Source: Muribaculaceae bacterium (GTDB lineage: Bacteria > Bacteroidota > Bacteroidia > Bacteroidales > Muribaculaceae). From it: 46,794 bases of DNA. The stretch's first letter is position 1; the number at the start of each line of letters is the position of its first letter. The notes below the pieces were generated by a model. The model was not told the DNA's origin and ran no database searches. It saw only the letters and a list, made by a program, of their open reading frames with translations. The position numbers and the translations under genes were made by a program. This document shows, piece after piece, positions 2,023 through 33,383 of the stretch. The stretch spans positions 1 to 46,794 of the forward strand of contig JAIDTL010000044.1 in assembly GCA_029060725.1 (NCBI GenBank). Direction: 5' to 3'.

Positions 2023-2051
2023 TTCAAATCATTCTAAATTCTCAATTCCTT
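2023..2051 (-). repeat. short heptamer repeat at the dsbD stop codon
   Basis: The plus strand reads ATTCTAA ATTCTCA ATTCCTT (2031-2051), preceded by a related TCAAATC. The dsbD stop codon (2042-2044) lies inside the second unit. A similar period-7 A/T-rich pattern fills the spacer upstream of dsbD. Confidence 0.45.
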
Positions 2052-4102
2052 TTAGAGTAATTGTCAAGACCTTGCTTCAGGAAGCGCTTATAGCCCGGAA
2101 TGTCTTCTTCATATACGAATGCCGGAGCCAACGGATTGCCGTTATTGTCTACGAGAACATGGAATGGCTGTGCATTAGCACCAAACTTAGATCTTTGTAA
2201 ATAGCTCCACTTGTCGCCGTATGTGCGAAGGGTGCGTTGAGTCCCATCTTTTTCAGTTACCTTGATAGGCTCCGGAAGAGCTTTTTTCTCATCTACCATG
2301 AGAGTCACAAGTACATAGTCGTTGTCGATGGTAGCTTTTATTTCCGGGTCTGTCCATACGGCTGCCTCCATCTTGCGGCAGTTGACACATCCATAGCCGG
2401 AGAAGTCAAGCATTACCGGTTTCCCAAGTTTACGACCAAGTTCCATACCCTCTTCATAGTCATCTACCACAGCATGCACGTCGCCTTCATAGAGAGAGAA
2501 ATCCTGAGTGTATGTAGGAGGTGCGAATGCGCTGATGGCTTTCAGAGGAGCACCCCAGAGTCCCGGTAGCATATAGATGGCGAATGCAAAGGAGATGCAA
2601 GCGAGCATAAAACGTGTCACACCTGTCTTCTCCACTTTGTCATCATGAGGGAACGTAATTTTACCAAGAAGGTATACGCCAAGAAGCGCGAAGATGACTA
2701 TCCAGAGGCTTACGAAAACCTCACGGTCAAGTATTCTCCATCCGTAGGCAAGGTCTGCAACTGAAAGGAACTTCAGAGCTAAAGCAAGCTCAAGGAAGCC
2801 AAGCACTACTTTCACAGTGTTCATCCATCCTCCGCTCTTCGGCATGCTGTTGAGCATTGTCGGGAACATGGCAAAAAGAGTGAAGGGGAGGGCGAGGGCA
2901 AGTGCGAATCCGAACATGCCGACTGCCGGAGAAACGAAATTACTTGTTGAGGCAGCTTCCACAAGAAGAGTACCGATGATCGGACCCGTGCAGCTGAATG
3001 ATACGAGCACAAGTGTAAACGCCATGAAGAAAATGGAGAGCATTCCTGTCGTAGCATCTACCTTAGAGTCCATCTTATTAGTCCAACTTGCAGGCAGTGT
3101 AAGTTCGAAACCACCCATAAAAGAGATGGCGAACACCACAAGAAGAAGGAAGAAGATTATATTGAAGATGGCGTTTGTAGCAAGATTGTTTAGCGCGGAT
3201 GCTCCGAAGATGATAGTCACAGCTAATCCGAGCAGAACATAAATCACTATGATCGAACCTCCATACGTGGCAGCAGCGCTGATCGCCTTCTTGCGGCTTT
3301 TCTTATTCTGCTTAAGGAAGAATGATACCGTCATTGGAATCATAGGCCAAACGCATGGAGTGACGAGAGCAATTAGTCCGCCGAGGAAACCTGCTATGAA
3401 GATATAGAGCAGACTGCTTGTAGCTTCAGGAGCATCCTCTTCAAATGCACGCAGTTCAGCTTCCACATTAGTCCACCATCCTTCTTTAGTCACATCTCCA
3501 TTTGACAGGACTCCCGGAACAAGAGGTCCGTCTGCCTGATGCAATGAATCTACTGCCTCAGCTATTGCTTCAGCTTTTTCTTCGGTAGAAACCTCTGCGG
3601 CAGAGGGGAGGGGAGCCGGCAGATCCTTGACTTCTGAAACAGTGGAGACAGGTGCCTTTCCGGAAAGACTCTTTCCTCCATACACTTGCGTACATCCGGT
3701 ATCATTACAAGCTTGACCTTTTATTTCTACGTCTACCGAGTAGTTGGCGGCAGTTGGTTTCAGTTTCTGAGTAAATGTTACTTTATTGGAATAGAAATGT
3801 TGGTCTACTTCAAAAGTATCATCAAATTCTTTTGTATAAGGATGGTCGGCTGTCGGAGCTCCAACAGTCTCGCATCCCTTGGTATCGAAATAGAACACGA
3901 GTGGATTTGATCCTCCTGCCGGATTATCAATTGAATAAAGGTGGTAGCCGGGTTCAATTGTAGCTGTGGCTACAACTTTTGGAGAGTCCGTACCGTCTCC
4001 AACAAGTTTTATATCCCACTTCACTGCATCAGCTGCAAATCCGGAAACTCCTAAAATCACAGCATAAAGAGCTACAAATAGAGAAAGTGTAAGCCTCTTC
4101 AT
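2042..4102 (-). CDS. dsbD: DsbD-like thiol:disulfide interchange protein
   Basis: A 686-residue inner-membrane electron carrier with the three-part DsbD layout. After a signal peptide (about 1-24) comes a periplasmic immunoglobulin-like alpha domain with a cysteine pair (C132, C137). A CcdA-like membrane domain of about eight helices (about 228-520) carries the conserved Cys in VTPCVWP (C250) and FSCTGP (C371). The C-terminal thioredoxin domain has a GCVNC motif (C572, C575). In the family, electrons pass from cytoplasmic thioredoxin through the membrane cysteines to the alpha domain and then to periplasmic partners. It lies 50 bp downstream of the Omp28-like gene and in the same direction as two further CxxC proteins, which makes these its probable clients. 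The final product name is secure; the partners are inferred. Confidence 0.93.
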   Translation of the reverse strand: MKRLTLSLFVALYAVILGVSGFAADAVKWDIKLVGDGTDSPKVVATATIEPGYHLYSIDNPAGGSNPLVFYFDTKGCETVGAPTADHPYTKEFDDTFEVDQHFYSNKVTFTQKLKPTAANYSVDVEIKGQACNDTGCTQVYGGKSLSGKAPVSTVSEVKDLPAPLPSAAEVSTEEKAEAIAEAVDSLHQADGPLVPGVLSNGDVTKEGWWTNVEAELRAFEEDAPEATSSLLYIFIAGFLGGLIALVTPCVWPMIPMTVSFFLKQNKKSRKKAISAAATYGGSIIVIYVLLGLAVTIIFGASALNNLATNAIFNIIFFLLLVVFAISFMGGFELTLPASWTNKMDSKVDATTGMLSIFFMAFTLVLVSFSCTGPIIGTLLVEAASTSNFVSPAVGMFGFALALALPFTLFAMFPTMLNSMPKSGGWMNTVKVVLGFLELALALKFLSVADLAYGWRILDREVFVSLWIVIFALLGVYLLGKITFPHDDKVEKTGVTRFMLACISFAFAIYMLPGLWGAPLKAISAFAPPTYTQDFSLYEGDVHAVVDDYEEGMELGRKLGKPVMLDFSGYGCVNCRKMEAAVWTDPEIKATIDNDYVLVTLMVDEKKALPEPIKVTEKDGTQRTLRTYGDKWSYLQRSKFGANAQPFHVLVDNNGNPLAPAFVYEEDIPGYKRFLKQGLDNYSKRN

Positions 4103-8998: not shown

Positions 8999-9030
8999 AT
9001 TTTTTGAGTTTTTCAGAATTAGTGATAATT

Positions 9031-9160
9031 GGTCTAATTAGTCATATTAGTCTAATTAGTCATATTGGTCTAATTAGTCATATTAGTCTAATTAGTCATA
9101 TTGGTCTAATTAGTCATATTAGTCTAATTAGTCTAATATGTGTTATTAGACTAATTAGAC
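9031..9160 (-). repeat. 18-bp tandem array (36-bp higher order) with terminal hairpin
   Basis: Six 18-bp units RGTCTAATTAGTCATATT run from 9031 to 9138. The first base alternates G, A, G, A, G, A, making a 36-bp higher-order unit; the last unit is changed at its end. An inverted copy follows, so that 16 bp at 9122-9137 pair perfectly with 9145-9160 around a 7-base loop. The array fills the 175-bp spacer between the oprM-like stop and the lpxA-like start. It may act as a transcript-stabilising or terminating structure; no U-run follows. Confidence 0.9.
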
Positions 9161-18977: not shown

Positions 18978-20264
18978 TTATTTTTCAAGTTCTGCTAACT
19001 TTGCCTTGAGTGCTTCGATTTCTCCCTTAAGTTCTTCAATTTGAGTATTGCTTGTATTCAACACTTGAGAGATCATTTCCTTAGCCTCTGTAAGTTGCAT
19101 ATAAAGCTGCTCAATTTCATTGTTGGTATCTTGGATTTCAGCCTTGTTGTCATTATAGTACTGAGACATCTGGTCGGAAAGACCACCTTCGCCCTTTACT
19201 TCAGCCCAAAGCTCATTGACTGACTTCTGAGCTTCTTCAGCAGCTTCCTTGTTGGCTGTATAGTACTGAGACATCTGGTCAGAAAGACCGCCTTCGCCCT
19301 TAACTTCAGCCCAAAGCTCATCAACTGACTTCTGAGCTTCTTCAGCAGCTTCCTTGTTGGCGGTGTAGTACTGAGACATCTGGTCAGAAAGGCCGCCTTC
19401 GCCCTTTACTTCAGCCCAAAGCTCTTCATTTGACTTAGCTACTTCTTCGATTTCAGTCTTATTAGCTGTGTAGTATTGCGACATTTGAGTGGTCAGACCA
19501 TTATCGCCATATACAGATTCCCAAAGCTCTTGATTTGAGGCGGCTACTTCATCGATAGCATTCTTGTTGGCTGTGTAGTATTGCGACATCTGAGTAGTAT
19601 AGCCGCCTTCACCGTTTAATGCCTCCCAAAGCTCTTGATTTGAAGCAGCTACTTCATCGATAGCATCCTTATTAGCAGTATATATCTGAGACATTTGAGT
19701 AGTCAGACCATTGTCTCCATAGATAGCTTCCCAGAGTTCTTTGCTTGATTTTGCTACTTCATCTATCTCTTCCTTATTTGCGGTATAGATCTGAGACATT
19801 TGAGTAGTCAGGCCATTATCGCCATATACTGCTTCCCAAAGTTCTTGGCAGTTGTTGGCAACTTCTTCGAGCTCACCCTTGTTTGCGTTAAGCACTTGAG
19901 AAAGCATCTCTTTAGTCTCTTCGATCTGCATATAGATCTGCTCGATTTCGTTGTTGACCTCAGTATTTGACTCTTCACACTGGTGGAGCACTTGAGTTAC
20001 AAACTGCTGAGTCTGCTCAAGCTGCTGATAGAGTTCCTGAATATATTGAGCATTTTCAACGATTGAAGTGACAGCATTGCCTTCAATACCTATTTCGTCA
20101 CCGTTGAAGGTAATGTTTTTGATGTCATTATGTCCAAGTGTGATAGTAGTTCCATTCTGGAGAGTGATCACCATGTTGTATTCAGTTTCATCCTGAGCGA
20201 ATCCATTGAATGGAAGAATTGTTGCAAGAGCAATGGCTGCAGTTGCTGATATTGTCTTTTTCAT
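18978..20264 (-). CDS. secreted 35-residue-repeat coiled-coil protein
   Basis: A 428-residue protein. The start at 20264 is chosen because it opens a clean signal peptide (MKKTISATAAIALATILPFN), whereas the longer frame overlaps the upstream gene. After the signal, residues 29-53 (YNMVITLQNGTTITLG, then HNDIKNITF) match a short motif common at the mature end of Bacteroidales secreted proteins. Seven consecutive 35-residue repeats (125-369) follow, with consensus YTANKxxIDEVAxSNxELW then a GDNGL or GEGGL turn and TTQMSQ. They are capped by related helical segments containing NEIEQ[IL]YMQ (about 104-128 and 382-405) and end in a Leu/Glu coiled coil. Thirty-five residues equal five heptads, so one continuous register is possible. 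Function unknown. It is the second gene of an operon, 22 bp after a small secreted protein. Confidence 0.8.
   Translation of the reverse strand: MKKTISATAAIALATILPFNGFAQDETEYNMVITLQNGTTITLGHNDIKNITFNGDEIGIEGNAVTSIVENAQYIQELYQQLEQTQQFVTQVLHQCEESNTEVNNEIEQIYMQIEETKEMLSQVLNANKGELEEVANNCQELWEAVYGDNGLTTQMSQIYTANKEEIDEVAKSSKELWEAIYGDNGLTTQMSQIYTANKDAIDEVAASNQELWEALNGEGGYTTQMSQYYTANKNAIDEVAASNQELWESVYGDNGLTTQMSQYYTANKTEIEEVAKSNEELWAEVKGEGGLSDQMSQYYTANKEAAEEAQKSVDELWAEVKGEGGLSDQMSQYYTANKEAAEEAQKSVNELWAEVKGEGGLSDQMSQYYNDNKAEIQDTNNEIEQLYMQLTEAKEMISQVLNTSNTQIEELKGEIEALKAKLAELEK
19158..19892 (-). repeat. seven 105-bp coding tandem repeats
   Basis: Seven in-frame 105-bp units encode the 35-residue repeats of the secreted coiled-coil protein. 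The units nearest the 3' end (about 19158-19370) are almost identical at DNA level, while the 5' units differ in the turn (GDNGL against GEGGL). This suggests recent expansion at one end. Confidence 0.9.
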
Positions 20265-20286: not shown

Positions 20287-20742
20287 TTACTTTTTAATTT
20301 TGAATGAATTGTTTGGAGTGCGGACAATGTAGTAGCCCGGAGCAAGGTCGTTTAGTTCTAAAGTGACGGTTGTCGTCTCGTCAGCTTTGAAAGAAGCTAC
20401 GTGTTGACCTTCGATTGTGTACACATCTACAGGTGTACCCGGGAGGAGTCCGCTTAGTGTAGATCCTTCGACTTTGATTTCGTCGACGCCTGATCCATTT
20501 GAAGACACAAAGTCAAAACTTTTGACATCTTCTGCCGGCACAGAGATTTCCATACGCATTGTCTCAACTACAAGAATATTGTCTTGATAGGTGATGACAG
20601 GACTTTCGTCGAGTGGAAATTGTGCCTCGATGCCGGTCTTCGTGATGATGACCATGCGGGCTTGTTCAGCCAGGACCGCTGAGACTCCAAGAAGTAGCAT
20701 TGCTACGACTGCGAAAGCACGAATTAGTAAATTTTTCTTCAT
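20287..20742 (-). CDS. small secreted protein with T9SS-like C-terminal domain
   Basis: A 151-residue protein from the ATG at 20742 (an alternative in-frame ATG two codons earlier is possible). A signal peptide (about 1-26) is followed by ARMVIITKTGIEAQFPL and later AEDVKSFDF. This is the same N-terminal theme as in the next gene. The last ~60 residues (GTPVDVYTIEGQHVASFKAD, LAPGYYIVRTPNNSFKIKK) look like a Por/T9SS type A sorting domain. It is likely exported; its role is unknown. The next gene starts 22 bp downstream, so the two are probably one transcript. Confidence 0.75.
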   Translation of the reverse strand: MKKNLLIRAFAVVAMLLLGVSAVLAEQARMVIITKTGIEAQFPLDESPVITYQDNILVVETMRMEISVPAEDVKSFDFVSSNGSGVDEIKVEGSTLSGLLPGTPVDVYTIEGQHVASFKADETTTVTLELNDLAPGYYIVRTPNNSFKIKK

Positions 20743-20795
20743 GTGCATTTTCTGTTTTACAGCGGTTTATTTTGTTGGTTTGTTAAAATCGGGTG

Positions 20796-20803
20796 CAAAA
20801 TTA
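20796..20803 (-). promoter_or_regulatory. probable -7 element of the small secreted protein / repeat protein operon
   Basis: The minus strand reads TAATTTTG, a perfect TAnnTTTG, 53 bases upstream of the first start codon. The -33 element is not clear. Confidence 0.5.
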
Positions 20804-20876
20804 GTAAATTATTTTCATATAGAAAAAGAATTTTGCTTGAATTTATAAAAATTTCGATATTTTAGACCTTTTTTGT

Positions 20877-20912
20877 AAAAAAAAGACGAGATTCGGCATT
20901 TGCCGAATCTCG
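20877..20912 (-). terminator. rho-independent terminator after ftsH
   Basis: A perfect 12-bp stem CGAGATTCGGCA/TGCCGAATCTCG with a 2-base loop lies 25 bp after the ftsH stop codon. It is followed on the minus strand by a C and a run of eight T. Confidence 0.92.
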
Positions 20913-20917
20913 CTATA

Positions 20918-20952
20918 ATTGATCATTTATCGCTGATCATTGTTCGTTATTC
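20918..20952 (-). repeat. degenerate heptamer array across the ftsH stop codon
   Basis: On the plus strand five consecutive heptamers read ATTGATC ATTTATC GCTGATC ATTGTTC GTTATTC. They are related to the GTTRATC units found near thiE and plsC. The ftsH stop codon (20937-20939) lies inside the third unit, so the last protein residues are encoded by the array. Confidence 0.6.
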
Positions 20953-22979
20953 GTTTTATTAAACGGTGGGGGTGTACCCGGATCAGAGTCATCTTCAGAG
21001 TCAGGTTTCTTTAATTCTATTCCTTTGCGGTTTTCTTCCTCCTTCTTATTGATTTCTATGATCTCATCTGTTCTGCTCTTCCATTTGCGCGGACCAAGAA
21101 TTGCCTTTACATCTTCGTTGTAGATCACTTCCTTCTTCACGAGAAGATCCCTTATCTGATTATGTTGGGCTGCATACTCTCTTAATATTGATTTAGCACG
21201 CTCATATTGTTCGTTGATCAGGCGTATTACTTCATCGTCTATCAGTTTTGCAGTCTCTTCAGAGTAGGGCTTTGTGAATCCATAGTCCTGCCCCGTAGAG
21301 TCATTATAGTTGACGTTGGGGAGTTTATCGCTCATACCATATACCATCACCATGGAGCGAGCCAATTTGGTGGTCTTTTCAAGATCGTCAGAAGCTCCGG
21401 TGCCAATCTTGCCGAGGAAAACTTCTTCAGCCGCCCTGCCGGCAAGCATGCCGCACATTGTGTCAAGAAGCGCTTGGGTAGGAATAATCTGGCGAGCTTC
21501 CGGAGCATACCATGCAGCTCCCAATGCTCTACCACGCGGTACAATGGTGACTTTTACAAGAGGATTGCCAAATTCTGTCATCCAACTGATGGTGGCATGT
21601 CCGGCTTCATGAGTTGCGATTGCGAATTTCTCATCGTCTGTAATTACGCGGGAACGTTTTTCAAGACCACCAACGATCCTGTCGATTGCTGCCATAAAGT
21701 CGTCCCAGTCTACAGCCTGTTTGTTGTTGCGGGCTGCTATAAGCGCAGCTTCGTTGCAGACATTGGCGATATCAGCTCCGGAGAATCCCTGGGTCTGGCG
21801 AGCAAGCTGTTCTACGTCAAGATGGGAGTTTGTCTTAATCCTTCTCAGGTGCACATTGAAGATTTCTACTCGATCTGATAGTTCCGGAAGGTCTACATAT
21901 ATCTGGCGGTCGAAACGTCCCGGACGGAGCAGAGCTTTGTCGAGCATATCTGCACGGTTGGTTGCCGCAAGCACGATTACTCCATTGTTTGATCCAAAAC
22001 CGTCCATCTCCGTAAGCATCTGGTTGAGAGTGTTCTCGCGTTCGTCGTTGCTTCCCATATTCGGGTTTTTGCCTCGGGCACGACCTACTGCATCAATCTC
22101 ATCGATAAAGACGATGCATGGAGCTTTATCTTTAGCCTGCTTGAAAAGGTCACGTACTCGTGCTGCTCCGACACCTACGAACATCTCTACGAAGTCTGAG
22201 CCGGAAAGCGAAAGGAAAGGTACTCCTGCCTCGCCTGCTACAGCTTTGGCAAGAAGAGTCTTACCGGTTCCCGGAGGGCCAACCAAGAGAGCTCCTCGAG
22301 GTATCTTTGCTCCCAGTTCAGTATAGCGTTGTGGATTTTTCAAGAATTCCACTATTTCTTCTATTTCTACTTTTGCTTCTGCAAGTCCGGCTACATCTTT
22401 GAATGTGACGTCAGTGCCGTTATTCTTGTCGAATATCCTGGCCTTCGACTTGCCGACGCTGAAGATACCACCGCCACCGCTGCCGCCACCGCTCATGCGT
22501 TTTTGCATATAGAAGATGAAGAAAGCAATGAGGATGAAGGGACCGAAATACCAGAAGAACTTCATCAAGTCGCTCCCTTTTTCATATTTAACTGTCAACT
22601 CAGGTTTTCCTTCGGAAGCCAGTTGTTCGTTCCATGCGTCGATTTTATCCTGGATCTTGTTGGTGCTTGGTATGTTGGTCTTGAGTCTTTTCTCAGCATC
22701 AACGCCCTGCACATCATCGTGCATATTCTGCTTCTTTGCGCCTTCTTTGGTCAGCACACCAATGGCAATGCCTGATTCCGGCACAACCTCAATCTTAGAG
22801 ATTTCACCGGCTTTAGCGGCATCTTCAAATTCTGTCCAGTCTACGCTTTTAGTCTGGCTGCTGTCTTGGAAATAGTAGAGGCCGATAAGGCACGCCACTA
22901 TTAAGATGTACATCCAGTACATCCCGAACATCGGACGCTTGTTGGAGCCTCCGTTTTTATTGCTTGGAAGTATTCCCAT
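20937..22979 (-). CDS. ftsH: ATP-dependent zinc metalloprotease FtsH
   Basis: A 680-residue membrane AAA+ protease that degrades misfolded and regulatory membrane and soluble proteins. A first membrane helix (about 20-38), a periplasmic domain and a second helix (about 143-158) precede a Gly-rich linker. The AAA domain has Walker A GPPGTGKT (about 234-241), Walker B VFIDEID (about 290-296) and the second region of homology in [18 protein letters not shown]. The zinc site HEAGH is at 457-461. The C-terminal tail is long, charged and ends in KTNNEQ encoded by a repeat array. The rsfS gene precedes it by 27 bp in the same direction. Confidence 0.97.
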
Positions 22980-23006
22980 TTCTATTGAGTTGTCAGTTAT
23001 TCATAA

Positions 23007-23348
23007 TTAATCAAGGTCTGGAATAAGCGTGGTCTCCGCATCGCTCCATAGCTCTTCAAGACGGTAGAATTCACGCGTCTCGGGCAAAAAGATATGCACC
23101 ATCGTGTCACCGTAATCTATCACTATCCATTGACTGTTGCGGTAGCCATCGTAATTAATGGGCTTCTCACCGGTCTTTTTTTGCACTTCTTCACGAACGC
23201 TGTCGGCTATTGAACTGACCTGGGTAGTCGATTTTCCCGTACAGATCACAAATTTTCCGGTTGGCGCGCCGTCCACTTTCGCAAGATCGAGAATGGTAAT
23301 GGCAAAACCTTTCTTATCCTGTATTGCTTCTATTATTTCTTTTATCAT
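23007..23348 (-). CDS. rsfS: ribosomal silencing factor RsfS (Iojap/YbeB)
   Basis: A 113-residue protein of the RsfS family, which binds ribosomal protein uL14 and blocks subunit joining when nutrients run out. Diagnostic segments are DGAPTGKFVICTGKSTTQVS, NYDGYRNSQWIVIDYGDTMVHIF and a tail with FYRLEELW. The start at 23348 (MIKEIIEAIQDKKGF) matches the family. A longer open frame upstream runs through a hairpin and is rejected. It lies 27 bp upstream of ftsH. Confidence 0.95.
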   Translation of the reverse strand: MIKEIIEAIQDKKGFAITILDLAKVDGAPTGKFVICTGKSTTQVSSIADSVREEVQKKTGEKPINYDGYRNSQWIVIDYGDTMVHIFLPETREFYRLEELWSDAETTLIPDLD

Positions 23349-23374
23349 CCTGATATATATGTTCTTAATATAAA

Positions 23375-23419
23375 AATTAGGGGGCATTGCATACATTTGA
23401 TGCAACACTCTCCCTAATT
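23375..23419 (-). terminator. stem-loop terminator between sodB and rsfS
   Basis: An inverted repeat pairs AATTAGGG with CCCTAATT, and an inner TTGCAT pairs with ATGCAA. On the minus strand it is followed by TTTTTAT, so it can end the sodB transcript. It could also shape the rsfS leader, since it ends only about 27 bases before that start codon. Confidence 0.65.
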
Positions 23420-23492
23420 ATAACAAATATCAAGCCAATTTGATTACAAAAACTTTTTCGTGGCTCAAATCTATCTTTGCCTTATATGACTT

Positions 23493-24083
23493 TTATGACT
23501 CAAAGATATTGTCATAGCGTTGGCCAACTATTCGCCAGTCTACGATGTGCCATTGCTGGTCAATGTAGTCCGGACGGCGATTTTCATAGTCGAGATAGTA
23601 GGCATGTTCCCATACGTCGATACAGAGTAGGGGAGTGAGTCCATCTTTCAGAGGAGACTCGGCATTGCGGCCCTGGGTGATGATGAGTTTGCCGTCAGCA
23701 TCAGCAGAAAGCCATACCCATCCGCTGCCGAAGAGTGTCTTTCCAGCCTCCTTCATAGTTTCTTTAAGATTCTCGACGCTTTCAAAAGTCTCCTCGATCT
23801 TCTTTCTGAAAGCTCCATCCGGTTCATGTTGTCCTTCCGGATCAAATGTGAAGAAATAGAAGATATGATTCCAGGCCTGAGAAGCATTGTTAAATAGTAC
23901 TCCATCGCTTTTCACTACTATTTCGTCGAGAGGCATTTCCTCATACTCTGTTCCCTTGATAAGAGAGTTTGTAGTGTCAAAATAAGCTTTTGTATGTTTG
24001 CCGAAATGAATGCTGACAGTCCTTTCTGAAATGAAAGGCGCCAAAGCATCTGGGGAATAAGGAAGTTTTGGTTGTGTCACCAT
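23493..24083 (-). CDS. sodB: superoxide dismutase, Fe-type
   Basis: A 196-residue Fe/Mn-family superoxide dismutase converting superoxide to oxygen and hydrogen peroxide. Metal ligands are visible: H26 in SIHFGKH, H73 in QAWNHIFYF, and D156 and H160 in CIDVWEHAYYLDY. Gln at 69 (NNASQAWNH) and the lack of a Gln in the later TQGRNAESPL segment are features of iron enzymes. Some Bacteroidales enzymes of this type work with either metal, so cambialism cannot be excluded. It is flanked by a downstream terminator and an unusual palindrome upstream. Confidence 0.95.
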   Translation of the reverse strand: MVTQPKLPYSPDALAPFISERTVSIHFGKHTKAYFDTTNSLIKGTEYEEMPLDEIVVKSDGVLFNNASQAWNHIFYFFTFDPEGQHEPDGAFRKKIEETFESVENLKETMKEAGKTLFGSGWVWLSADADGKLIITQGRNAESPLKDGLTPLLCIDVWEHAYYLDYENRRPDYIDQQWHIVDWRIVGQRYDNIFES

Positions 24084-24129
24084 AGTGTCTAAGAGTTTAT
24101 AAAGGTTAAAAGGTTAATTTGGGGTTATT

Positions 24130-24157
24130 ATCTTGATTCATCATGATGAATCAAGAT
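24130..24157. repeat. perfect 28-bp palindrome upstream of sodB
   Basis: The sequence ATCTTGATTCATCA and its exact reverse complement follow each other without a spacer, giving a perfect 28-bp palindrome. Further ATCAAGAT and TCATGATG words continue to 24188 and run into the heptamer array. It lies 47 bp upstream of the sodB start codon, so it could be an operator for a dimeric regulator or a degraded part of the repeat array. Confidence 0.85.
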
Positions 24158-24188
24158 TTATCATGTTTTATCAAGATCCATCATGATA

Positions 24189-24258
24189 GTTAATAGTTGA
24201 TCGTTGATCGTTAATCGTTAATCGTTGATCGTTAATCGTTGATCGTTAATCGTTGATC
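24189..24258 (-). repeat. heptamer array GTTRATC, ten units, across the thiE-like stop codon
   Basis: Ten perfect-period heptamers run from 24189 to 24258 on the plus strand: one GTTAATA, then a mix of GTTGATC and GTTAATC. The stop codon of the ThiE-like gene (24246-24248) falls inside the ninth unit and the last residues (IND) are encoded by the array. Confidence 0.92.
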
Positions 24259-24878
24259 CTTGCCTGCTCTTTTTCCTCGTATTTTTTTAGCAAGGCATTT
24301 GCTTTTTCAGTTTCAGCAGGGATATCAGCGGCATCTGCTATAGCTTCAGACATAGCTACTCCGTTGCATCCTGCATCCATAAGGAGAGCAATATCATCGT
24401 AGGTTATGCCCCCGGCTGCTACGCGTGGGAGTTCCATCTGCTTTTCTTCCATGTATTGGCATAGCTCTTTTATGCCATCAATTCCAAGGGAATTCTCAGC
24501 GTCTTTATAAGGCGTCAGCACTACATAATCCACATCGAGTCCCTGAAGAGCAGCTATCTGGTCTTTGGTAGACACTTCAACACCCACCACTGCTGCTGCA
24601 CCCAGAGCCATACGTGCGTGTGAAGGGAATTCACTTCCCTGACTGAGCTGTACGCCTCCCATGTTTATTTCTTTTGCGAGCTCCACTTTGTCCTTAAGGA
24701 TAAGAAAAGCCTGCTTCTCCAGACATGTCGGCATCACTTTCTCCACCAGTGCCTTCACATCCTCATCTGTCATTCCGGTAGGGTCAATAGTAATCCAATT
24801 TCCTCCGGCTGAAAGCACCTCCTTGATCTGATCTTCTACGCTGCGTTTAGCAGCGTTGTCGGTAATATATTGCAACAT
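24246..24878 (-). CDS. ThiE-like TIM-barrel protein, active site degenerate
   Basis: A 210-residue barrel of the thiamine-phosphate synthase (ThiE/TenI) family. Family features that remain are KDKVELAKEINMGGVQLSQ in the middle and the phosphate-binding end RVAAGGITYDDIALLMDAGCNGVAMSEAI. Family catalytic motifs are changed. The QxRxK strand is replaced by WITIDPTG, the ND before VELA is KD, the Mg-binding Asp of the GQxD motif is missing (SQGSE), and the Thr/Lys pyrophosphate loop (PTxTK) is replaced by TPYKDAENS. True thiamine synthesis is therefore doubtful. It may bind a phosphate-containing ligand, like TenI-type relatives. No other thiamine gene and no TPP riboswitch is nearby. It lies between plsC and sodB, flanked by matching heptamer arrays. 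Confidence 0.75.
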   Translation of the reverse strand: MLQYITDNAAKRSVEDQIKEVLSAGGNWITIDPTGMTDEDVKALVEKVMPTCLEKQAFLILKDKVELAKEINMGGVQLSQGSEFPSHARMALGAAAVVGVEVSTKDQIAALQGLDVDYVVLTPYKDAENSLGIDGIKELCQYMEEKQMELPRVAAGGITYDDIALLMDAGCNGVAMSEAIADAADIPAETEKANALLKKYEEKEQARIND

Positions 24879-24894
24879 AAGTATTAAATTTAAG

Positions 24895-24938
24895 GTTATA
24901 ATCGTTAATCGTTAATCGTTGATCGTTAATCGTTGTTC
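24895..24938 (-). repeat. heptamer array GTTRATC across the plsC stop codon
   Basis: Five heptamers (GTTAATC, GTTAATC, GTTGATC, GTTAATC, GTTGTTC) run from 24904 to 24938, preceded by a broken unit from 24895. The plsC stop codon (24912-24914) is inside. The unit is the same as in the array about 650 bp away, so the ThiE-like gene is bracketed by direct repeats. Confidence 0.9.
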
Positions 24939-25673
24939 ACTGCTCATCCCCTTGTCCTCTTCAGGAAGGGAAGACTCAATGGCTTCGCGACATTGTGCCA
25001 TGAGCACCTTAGTATTGAAACCCTTTTCTCCCGGCATGATAGGAGGATGAATTGTGATTGTAATCTTTGTGGGGCGGATATTATAAGTATACCGAGGCAT
25101 TGCCTTGAAAGAACCATCGATTGTGATCGGCACTACAGGGAGTCTGAACTCAGCTGCAAGCATGAAAGCGCCTCGCTTGAAAGGGATCATCTTTCCATCC
25201 CATGAGCGGCTTCCTTCCGGAAAAATCACCAGCGAACGCCCGCTCTGAAGTTTCTTTTCAGTCTCCTCAATAGTATGACGGATATTGGAAATGCTTTGGT
25301 CGTCAACGAAAACGTGTCCAGCCTTCTTGCATGCCCAGCCCACCATAAAGATATCCTCCAATTCCTTTTTCATCATCCAGATGAATTTATGGTTCAGATA
25401 TCCATATATCGACCATATATCGAAGGCTCCTTGATGATTGGCGGTAAAGACGTAAGAAGTGTTCTTATCTATGTTTTCTCTGCCTACCACCTTTACTCTC
25501 ACCCCAGCTATAGCGCAGCAGAATCTACTCCAATAGTGAGCCGGCCAATAACCCCATACTTCCGATTTTCCCAACGAACATCCGATTATGGTGACGATTG
25601 CGGCTATTAAAGTAGCCACCAAAAATATTGGCGCAGCAATCAGCCACTGATAGATTCTATAAAGCACTATCAT
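24912..25673 (-). CDS. plsC: 1-acyl-sn-glycerol-3-phosphate acyltransferase (PlsC-like)
   Basis: A 253-residue membrane acyltransferase that makes phosphatidic acid from lysophosphatidic acid. An N-terminal hydrophobic region (about 10-34) precedes the catalytic motif NHQGAFD (79-85, the NHxxxxD box) and the substrate-binding motif FPEGSRS (151-157), followed by PVVPITIDGS. The usual Ser of NHQS is Gly here. The C-terminal LTIND is encoded by the heptamer array. It lies 39 bp downstream of rprY on the same strand and 33 bp upstream of the ThiE-like gene. Confidence 0.93.
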   Translation of the reverse strand: MIVLYRIYQWLIAAPIFLVATLIAAIVTIIGCSLGKSEVWGYWPAHYWSRFCCAIAGVRVKVVGRENIDKNTSYVFTANHQGAFDIWSIYGYLNHKFIWMMKKELEDIFMVGWACKKAGHVFVDDQSISNIRHTIEETEKKLQSGRSLVIFPEGSRSWDGKMIPFKRGAFMLAAEFRLPVVPITIDGSFKAMPRYTYNIRPTKITITIHPPIMPGEKGFNTKVLMAQCREAIESSLPEEDKGMSSEQRLTIND

Positions 25674-31551: not shown

Positions 31552-33342
31552 ATGAAAAAAGAACAAAAGTCACTCTCCTCAAAAAAGGCTGTCAAGGCTG
31601 CCAAAGCTGCCGACAAGCCAGTGAAAGGTAAAGGTAAAAAGACTGTGAATGAGCCATGTGATGGCTTTCCCAGCAAATTGCTTTTCGAGACAAGTTGGGA
31701 AGTTTGCAATAAAATCGGCGGTATATATACCGTTCTTTCCACAAAAGCTCGCGTCCTTAAAGAGCAGTTTGGCGATAATCTGATATTCATTGGTCCCGAT
31801 GTTTGGACTGATGAGACTCCATCCCCCTATTTTAAAGAATCAAAGACTCTTCTGAAGTCTGCACATAAACTTACTCTCCCTCATGGAATCTCAATGCGTG
31901 TAGGGCGTTGGGATATTCCTGGTTCCCCTATTGTAGTGCTAATCAAATTTGACGGTATCTATCCGCTCCTCAATGATATTTATGGTGAAATGTGGCGCAT
32001 GTTTGGCGTTGATTCCCTTCATTGCTACGGCGATTATCCTGAGGGGTGTGCTTTCGGAGTGGCTGCGGCAATCACTATGGAGGCTCTGTCCAATCATCTT
32101 GGTGCCGAAGACACAAATGTCCTCGCTCATTTCAATGAGTGGACTACAGGAATGGGTCTTCTTTGGCTACGCAAGATTATGCCTGAAGCAGCCAGCCTTT
32201 TCACTACTCATGCTACATCTATAGGGCGTTCCATCTGTGGCAACGGCAAGAATCTATATGAGTATTTCACCGGATATAATGGCGACCAGATGGCGCGCGA
32301 ACTCAACATGGAGGCTAAGCACTCCGTGGAGAAGGCTGCAGCTATTAATGCCGACTGCTTCACGGCTGTCAGCTCCCTTACAGCCGATGAATGTGCTCAA
32401 CTCCTTGACAAACGTCCGGAAGTTGTTACTCCCAATGGCTTTGAACCGGACTTTGTGCCCTCAAAACGCACTTACACCATGCTCCGCAATGCCGGAAGAA
32501 GACGCCTTCTCGATATAGCTGAGAAGATGACGGGAAAGAAATGGAGCGAAGACACTCTGATCATTGCTACATCAGGAAGAAATGAATACCGAAACAAGGG
32601 TCTTGACGTGTTTCTCGACAGTATGGCAGAACTATCAAGGACCGGGGCTGCCGCTCGCCGTGATATCCTCTCCCTCGTGCTCGTGCCGGCTTGGGTAAAG
32701 GAGCCTAATGGAGAACTCCTTATAGATATGTATCAGAGCGGTGAACTAAATGTCAACCCCGACTATCTTACTCATCGCCTCAACAATGAGGATTCTGATC
32801 CTGCTTGTCGTCGCATTGGTCAACTCCAATGGGATGGTCAGTTGGCGGGTAATGGCCAAGTAAAGACTATATTCATTCCTTGTTATCTTGATGGTGCTGA
32901 CGGAATTGTCAACATTTCTTACTACGATATCCTTCCAGCCCTTGATATAACAGTGTTTGCATCCTACTACGAACCATGGGGTTACACTCCACTTGAAAGC
33001 ATAGCTTTCGGAGTCCCGACAGTCACAACCGACAAGTCCGGTTTTGGTCAATGGGTAGAATCGGATGTAGCGTGCCAAAAGATTGACTCCCCAATAGAAT
33101 CTCTGACTAAGTCCGGTGTAGTAGTCGCTCCTCGCAACGACAATAGCTATTGGGACACTGTAAAGGCTATCGCCCACACTATTGAGGCTTTCTCCGGTGC
33201 TGACAAGAAGACAGTAGAGGCTTGCTCAAATGCAGCTTCCGCTACCGCAGCTCTCGCAGATTGGAAACTTTTCATCTCAAAATATGATGAGGCTTTTCAT
33301 ATAGCAGAGCATAACCGCAATAAAAGACTAAAAGAAAATTAG
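31552..33342 (+). CDS. glycogen synthase, eukaryote-like GT3 type
   Basis: A 596-residue glycosyltransferase that extends alpha-1,4-glucan from a nucleotide-glucose donor. A Lys/Ala-rich tail of about 30 residues precedes the GT-B fold, which opens with LLFETSWEVCNKIGGIYTVL (KIGG donor motif at 54-57). The C-terminal donor site reads SYYEPWGYTPLES, then FGVPTVTTDKSGFG, which is very close to yeast and animal glycogen synthases (GT3) and unlike bacterial GlgA (GT5). GT3-like enzymes are usual in Bacteroidales. The phosphorylase gene follows after 90 bp, giving a synthesis/breakdown pair. Which nucleotide sugar is used cannot be read. Confidence 0.9.
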   Translation: MKKEQKSLSSKKAVKAAKAADKPVKGKGKKTVNEPCDGFPSKLLFETSWEVCNKIGGIYTVLSTKARVLKEQFGDNLIFIGPDVWTDETPSPYFKESKTLLKSAHKLTLPHGISMRVGRWDIPGSPIVVLIKFDGIYPLLNDIYGEMWRMFGVDSLHCYGDYPEGCAFGVAAAITMEALSNHLGAEDTNVLAHFNEWTTGMGLLWLRKIMPEAASLFTTHATSIGRSICGNGKNLYEYFTGYNGDQMARELNMEAKHSVEKAAAINADCFTAVSSLTADECAQLLDKRPEVVTPNGFEPDFVPSKRTYTMLRNAGRRRLLDIAEKMTGKKWSEDTLIIATSGRNEYRNKGLDVFLDSMAELSRTGAAARRDILSLVLVPAWVKEPNGELLIDMYQSGELNVNPDYLTHRLNNEDSDPACRRIGQLQWDGQLAGNGQVKTIFIPCYLDGADGIVNISYYDILPALDITVFASYYEPWGYTPLESIAFGVPTVTTDKSGFGQWVESDVACQKIDSPIESLTKSGVVVAPRNDNSYWDTVKAIAHTIEAFSGADKKTVEACSNAASATAALADWKLFISKYDEAFHIAEHNRNKRLKEN

Positions 33343-33383
33343 ACTTATTTGACTAATTAGACTAATCGGACTAATTAGACTAA
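33339..33383 (+). repeat. nonamer array (TTAGACTAA) across the glycogen synthase stop codon
   Basis: Five 9-bp units (TTAGACTTA, TTTGACTAA, TTAGACTAA, TCGGACTAA, TTAGACTAA) run from 33339 to 33383. The first contains the stop codon of glycogen synthase (33340-33342). The words resemble those of the 18-bp array at 9031-9160. It occupies half of the gap before the phosphorylase gene. Confidence 0.8.

Follow-up and report, generated by a model that had tools for sequence, protein, structure and literature searches.

Stop-anchored GATYAAC arrays in a Muribaculaceae genome: probably spreading, stuttering heptamer repeats rather than a built translation brake

The window analysed here is a stretch of 46,794 nucleotides (contig JAIDTL010000044.1, positions 1 to 46,794) from a Muribaculaceae bacterium, whose draft assembly (GCA_029060725.1) comprises 3,430,453 bases in 170 contigs and is 86.6% complete. 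Several of its genes end in tandem arrays of a 7-bp word, and these arrays are our subject. The word reads GTTRATC on the plus strand, GATYAAC on the gene strand, and TAACGAT in the register of the stop codon. A sequence-only reading had placed this one word at three sites, over the stops of ftsH, a thiE-like gene and a plsC gene, and direct reading found the stops at the coordinates it gave (Table 1). Two of the arrays are clean. Tandem Repeats Finder (TRF) puts the one at the ThiE-like stop at 24189-24258 (period 7, 10 copies) and the one at the plsC-type stop at 24899-24934 (5.1 copies), the latter occupying most of the spacer before the next start. The ftsH site, however, is degenerate, and TRF, at a minimum score of 30, lists no repeat for 20918-20952. 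Last residues such as IND do come from the array, for example in the ThiE-like gene. At the dsbD stop, where related words had been reported, a heptamer pair is indeed present on the TGA, but it is a different word and runs to about two copies. An Rfam scan of 20700-25200 gave zero matches.

Table 1. Repeats and genes discussed in the text, with coordinates in the window unless a locus handle (L) is given
Feature	Position	Strand	Basis and remarks
GATYAAC array, ~10 copies	24184..24263	-	Direct reading and TRF; over TAA stop (24246-24248) of ThiE-like gene
GATYAAC array, ~5 copies	24897..24939	-	Direct reading and TRF; over TAA stop (24912-24914) of plsC-type gene
7-periodic run, degenerate	20918..20952	-	Over ftsH TGA stop (20937-20939)
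Heptamer pair, other word (sense TGAGAAT TTAGAAT)	2031..2051	-	Starts on dsbD TGA stop (2042-2044); below TRF threshold
10-bp repeat TTATCATGAT	24128..24187	not assigned	TRF; immediately past array at ThiE-like stop
ftsH	20937..22979	-	
ThiE-like gene	24246..24878	-	Pfam TMP-TENI
plsC-type acyltransferase gene	24912..25673	-	Pfam Acyltransferase
dsbD-like gene	2042..4102	-	
GATYAAC array within queA	L052 8349-8407		Contig C19
GATYAAC array within aroA	L052 7091-7130		Contig C19
GATYAAC array within 147-residue open reading frame	L052 6454-6489		Contig C19
Spacers with converging TVAGTCT arrays, genome G005	L326 1690-1840, 8520-8690; L317 8580-8750, 12360-12540		Long-stem folding potential

Distribution across the genome and the genus

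Arrays of this word recur throughout the genome, starting at the stops of unrelated genes. Three exact consecutive copies of GTTRATC match the assembly 57 times, against 0 for the reversed control pattern, and these matches make up 24 arrays, 22 of which lie outside called genes. On the coding strand as GATYAAC, 16 of the 24 fall on a stop codon or within 3 nt of one; the others comprise two lying just outside a start codon (at 4 and 7 nt), two within coding sequence and four elsewhere. A relaxed scan of the sequence fetched from this genome, allowing two mismatches in 21, yielded 42 sites. Three are within genes, and among the 39 intergenic sites 20 cover a stop codon, 19 of them in the sense orientation. 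An even spread over all spacers had been named as the outcome that would speak against a tie to stops; GATYAAC is instead concentrated at them.

The fetched stretches were selected for containing the triple match or for sharing a contig with one. Of the 468 gene ends that they contain, 32 show a 7-nt periodicity that sets in with the first base of their stop, compared with 0-4 for any other lag between 3 and 13. A further 20 contigs of the genome (237,869 bases) have 174 gene ends, and 0 of these show the periodicity. The fetched sample is thus enriched by design, and the effect is a property of the GATYAAC word. When all intergenic arrays with periods of 7-10 and 14 in the fetched stretches are pooled, 35 of 119 overlap a stop, and random placement gives 15.9-29.3 depending on how far an array is permitted to intrude into a gene; if arrays may intrude by 20 nt, and at the stop side alone, the excess loses significance (p 0.092). 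The strong stop effect therefore belongs to this word rather than to arrays overall.

The word is also narrowly distributed. Exact triple copies of GATYAAC occur in 5 of 101 relatives, all in the same genus (5/61) and none among the 40 from other families. In a sample of 395 genomes from the class the pattern is found in four, including our own, the other three having two matches each. Searches of open-licence papers found no report of arrays of this sort in Muribaculaceae.

Polarity, register and turnover

The arrays are strongly polar with respect to the nearest edge of an open reading frame (ORF). Of 72 untied sites in five species, 64 have the 5' end of GATYAAC closer to the edge than the 3' end, a count that includes orthologous, and so non-independent, sites of sister species. 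Our own genome contributes 30 such sites, five in reverse and one tie, and the stretches from four sister species contribute 34 against 3. Stops no farther than 10 nt from the array number 47 at the 5' end and 2 at the 3' end; for starts the corresponding counts are 7 and 2, a difference that by itself does not reach significance (p 0.18). Where two convergent genes share a spacer, the array has the sense orientation of the nearer one in 12 of 13 cases; replication direction was considered as the cause of polarity and is disfavoured by these cases, no formal test having been made.

Stops also share a register with the arrays. At 40 of 51 stop-side sites the TAA that ends the gene coincides with the TAA in the word, and at one more a TGA takes that place. 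This is trivial where the gene runs into the array, but 23 sites have no array-like codons upstream (no more than four of the seven bases that precede the stop agree with the word), and there 14 are in register, against 1 in 7 expected (p 3e-7). Orthologues show these stops to be native, the AQGVF* terminus of glutamate dehydrogenase being the same whether or not an array follows it.

Orthologous stops show turnover among sister species (rows L213, L211 and L222, which hold the wrong ORF, are left out). At the ThiE-like stop there are about ten copies in our genome (G000), about four in G014 and about two in G057, as would be expected of slippage, which the sequence-only reading had offered as one origin; G043 has only ATCAACGATTAA, followed by an octamer array. 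The end of plsC carries other heptamers in G129 and G005, and the ftsH stop has a short TAACGAT array in G014 and none in G057. The stop of glutamate dehydrogenase carries GATYAAC in G014, a second heptamer, TVAGTCT, in G005 and a degenerate form of the latter in G012, the other 7 of 10 genomes having no such array. A DUF1015 gene bears GATYAAC in G000 only, of 11 genomes. For two to three genomes of the genus (G030, G022; also loci L091 and L093), the 20-30 kb of sequence examined apiece contained no array at all. In the spacer past the ThiE-like gene region of G131 (L099 3024-3221) there is a 14-bp repeat of about 14 copies.

Arrays also occur inside genes. One contig of our genome carries GATYAAC within queA and aroA (assigned by Pfam) and within a 147-residue ORF, all with their frames open (Table 1). 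At the same position of queA, G014 has a short GATYAAC array, G005, G012 and G129 have other heptamers, and G131 and G115 have none; in aroA, GATYAAC is found in G014 and another heptamer in G005, with no evident array in G012 or G131. We infer that these sites are surface loops. The genes with arrays at their stops or starts are, among those examined, mostly housekeeping genes and not surface genes alone. In phase-variation simple sequence repeats, by comparison, it is surface or envelope genes whose expression is switched by the number of repeats.

TVAGTCT behaves much like GATYAAC. In triplicate it occurs in 7 genus genomes of the 101, with 220 matches in G005, 171 in G012, 37 in G129 and 0 in our own. 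Counting palindromic stretches on one strand only, its polarity is 36 against 8 (36/44; stretches of G005, G129, G012 and G131), with stops numbering 20 near the 5' end and 3 near the 3' end, and starts 11 and 1; in G012 alone polarity is absent (4 vs 3). Stops (TAA, TGA and once TAG) are in register at 16 of 24 stop-side sites, and at 10 of 18 under the same upstream rule. Two further heptamers lean the same way in our genome, TAATGCA by 24 to 6 and TAATTCA by 32 to 17, a lean that can stem from the TAA and CAT that these words supply; at stops, TAATTCA has no bias (11 vs 9). For nonamers (including the AATTAGTCT type), octamers and decamers, polarity is not significant.

Other repeats accompany these words in our genome. 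In the window and the stretches L031-L064, TAATGCA and TAATTCA often adjoin starts, their reverse strand giving the ATG, and there are further dispersed words of 8, 9 and 10 bp. Sequences resembling repetitive extragenic palindromes (REPs) are dispersed behind arrays in the same material: CGCCTCTCCGAGGC in 21 copies, GCGGAGCATGCTTTATTACGTT in 36 (one in a called gene) and GCACTCGGAGAGTGC in 16. Nonamer arrays of the AATTAGTCT type stand in the window at 9017-9158, about 15 nt past an outer-membrane efflux gene, and at 33337-33383, over the stop of a glycogen-synthase-like gene (31552-33342). Tandem repeats of 105 bp (19142-19847) lie within a gene called at 18978-20264.

Alternative explanations

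Because 7 is not a multiple of 3, a heptamer containing a stop, such as the T form of GATYAAC, yields TAA in all frames, and selection might keep such heptamers so that any frame terminates within 21 nt. That the arrays start at stops accords with this idea, which the sequence-only reading had raised; the composition of the arrays does not bear it out, and we regard it as very improbable indeed. Among 501 units, 225 have C and 244 have T at the Y, in an order that is nearly random at most loci, the other positions being 86-98% constant. Units with C hold no stop, and so about half of all units are stopless; of 33 first units past the gene's stop, 21 have C. Units that keep the gene's frame lean toward T, in the predicted direction, but not significantly (T:C 19:19 vs 40:67, p 0.18). 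The reverse orientation is richer in stops (1.05 per unit vs 0.51 for sense), yet it is almost missing at stops (2 vs 47 edges), and the same stop-bearing words are found beside start codons and within genes. Selection might instead act on the C-terminus of the protein, since sense arrays give polar tails ending in ND and reverse arrays give hydrophobic tails; tails of the reverse orientation may have a degron effect. GAT precedes the stop at 28 of the 40 in-register TAA sites, and background last codons are mostly polar, with GAT (26/475) more frequent than CGT (1). Arrays that start exactly at the stop, however, add no residues and have the same polarity, and this makes selection on the C-terminus a very doubtful cause.

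An element acting in RNA would suit arrays that lie at stops in the sense orientation: the transcribed repeat might bind a protein or block exonucleases, and set mRNA ends or couple translation within operons. Arrays do often stand between a stop and a close downstream start (19 sites in our genome, 21 in relatives), and for the 7-bp short tandemly repeated repetitive (STRR) sequences of Nostoc, an influence on transcript stability or translation coupling has been proposed (PMC2670836). We consider this unlikely, as other arrays are antisense next to starts, and both the word and its presence vary among sister species at one gene. Nor does folding favour it, the outward strand folding more weakly for GATYAAC, whose sense RNA folds weakly, and for TAATTCA, and more strongly for TVAGTCT; as the more stably folding strand differs among words, RNA structure was rejected as a shared cause. 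About equally unlikely is that the arrays are the ends of palindromic elements, REPs or miniature inverted-repeat transposable elements, that fill the spacer between ORFs, an arrangement that would account for polarity from both edges. In four spacers read in G005, TVAGTCT arrays converge, one in reverse, on a core with a GCGG...CCGC hairpin (Table 1), and convergent pairs are described for 70 cases in X. campestris by Rehm et al. 2015 (PMC4692102). Some TVAGTCT arrays may thus be ends of palindromic elements. Many others are unpaired, however, and among the listed GATYAAC sites there is no inverted pair and no common core behind the arrays, transposases not having been sought.

Dispersed repeats and known heptamer systems

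The explanation we prefer, with somewhat better than even confidence, is that these are dispersed heptamer repeats that slip locally, copy between loci and are tolerated at gene edges, and that they have no dedicated function. Repeats that spread and stutter are, on this view, more probable than a purpose-built brake on translation. The word active in a species, here GATYAAC, would be copied in trans to many unrelated loci, and the arrays so founded would lengthen and shorten by replication slippage. They would survive at the tolerant edges of ORFs, above all right at the stop codon, a place for which the word brings its own stops; the gene's stop triplet would there be the first triplet of the array. 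A few tolerant sites within proteins would keep arrays too, the reading frame staying open.

Several observations weigh against this explanation. Plain slippage predicts neither the strand polarity (64 to 8) nor the stop register (14/23 vs 1 in 7), and both remain unexplained by it. The even use of C and T at Y, in near-random order, is not explained by local growth from one seed. A copying event was never seen directly, and no enzyme or element responsible was identified. These points motivate another idea, which we hold to be a long shot: strand-specific writing, in which a template bearing the complement of the species' word would extend 3' ends finishing in TAA or TGA, laying new heptamers outward from ORF ends in stop register. 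The template could be another array, reached by template switching, or an RNA. If true, it would account at once for the polarity, the register and the fact that species have words of their own. DRT10 is described as a telomerase-like, tandem-repeat reverse transcriptase; no reverse transcriptase gene was found in our 86.6% complete assembly (PF00078, 0 matches; controls positive in 3 of 14).

Dispersed heptamer repeats, as we favour them here, have counterparts elsewhere. The arrays of Xanthomonas and Nostoc, with units GGGNATC and GGGGA(C/T)T, are likewise built of a dispersed 7-bp unit and are mostly non-coding, as ours are (22/24 outside called genes) (PMC4692102). Near stops, at up to 50 bp, they occupy the coding strand, and ahead of starts the non-coding strand, and the same rule describes both GATYAAC (stops 47 vs 2, starts 7 vs 2) and TVAGTCT (stops 20 vs 3, starts 11 vs 1). 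Stop overlap, convergent pairs, and kept positions with changes of length between relatives are further likenesses. In contrast, those units are G-rich and quadruplex-forming, with four units preferred, whereas GATYAAC is A+T-rich and without G-runs; the composition of the 501 units has no GG, and runs of G that could fold into a quadruplex are absent. Our arrays also differ in having the stop codon as a first triplet in register, word swaps between sisters, and copies within queA and aroA. MacGregor 2015 (PMC4679880) describes direct repeats of TAACTGA from Beggiatoaceae, from some Cyanobacteria and from five Bacteroidetes. In these heptamers, too, every frame meets a stop; 13 sets cover the stop codon of the gene upstream, certain Bacteroidetes have long arrays, and flanking relatives may lack the repeats. 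They stand mostly directly upstream of starts, in the forward orientation, whereas here the word is TAACGAT and stops dominate. The cyanobacterial STRRs are also 7-bp tandem repeats between genes but are described as forming hairpins in a promoter region and in the hupS-hupL interval, with no tie to a stop register (PMC2670836). The tandem repeats of archaeal Borgs evolve fast and also enter proteins, but they belong to extrachromosomal elements (PMC9879509).

What is new relative to the known heptamer arrays is the words themselves, the stop register, the exchange of words between sisters and the in-frame arrays in enzymes. Since GATYAAC, which has no G-run, and TVAGTCT share the polarity of the Xanthomonas and Nostoc type, quadruplexes are not its general cause. 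The in-frame arrays of queA and aroA show the process reaching enzymes of an essential type, and the differing words at one stop in sister species offer a natural series for the birth, spread and loss of heptamers.

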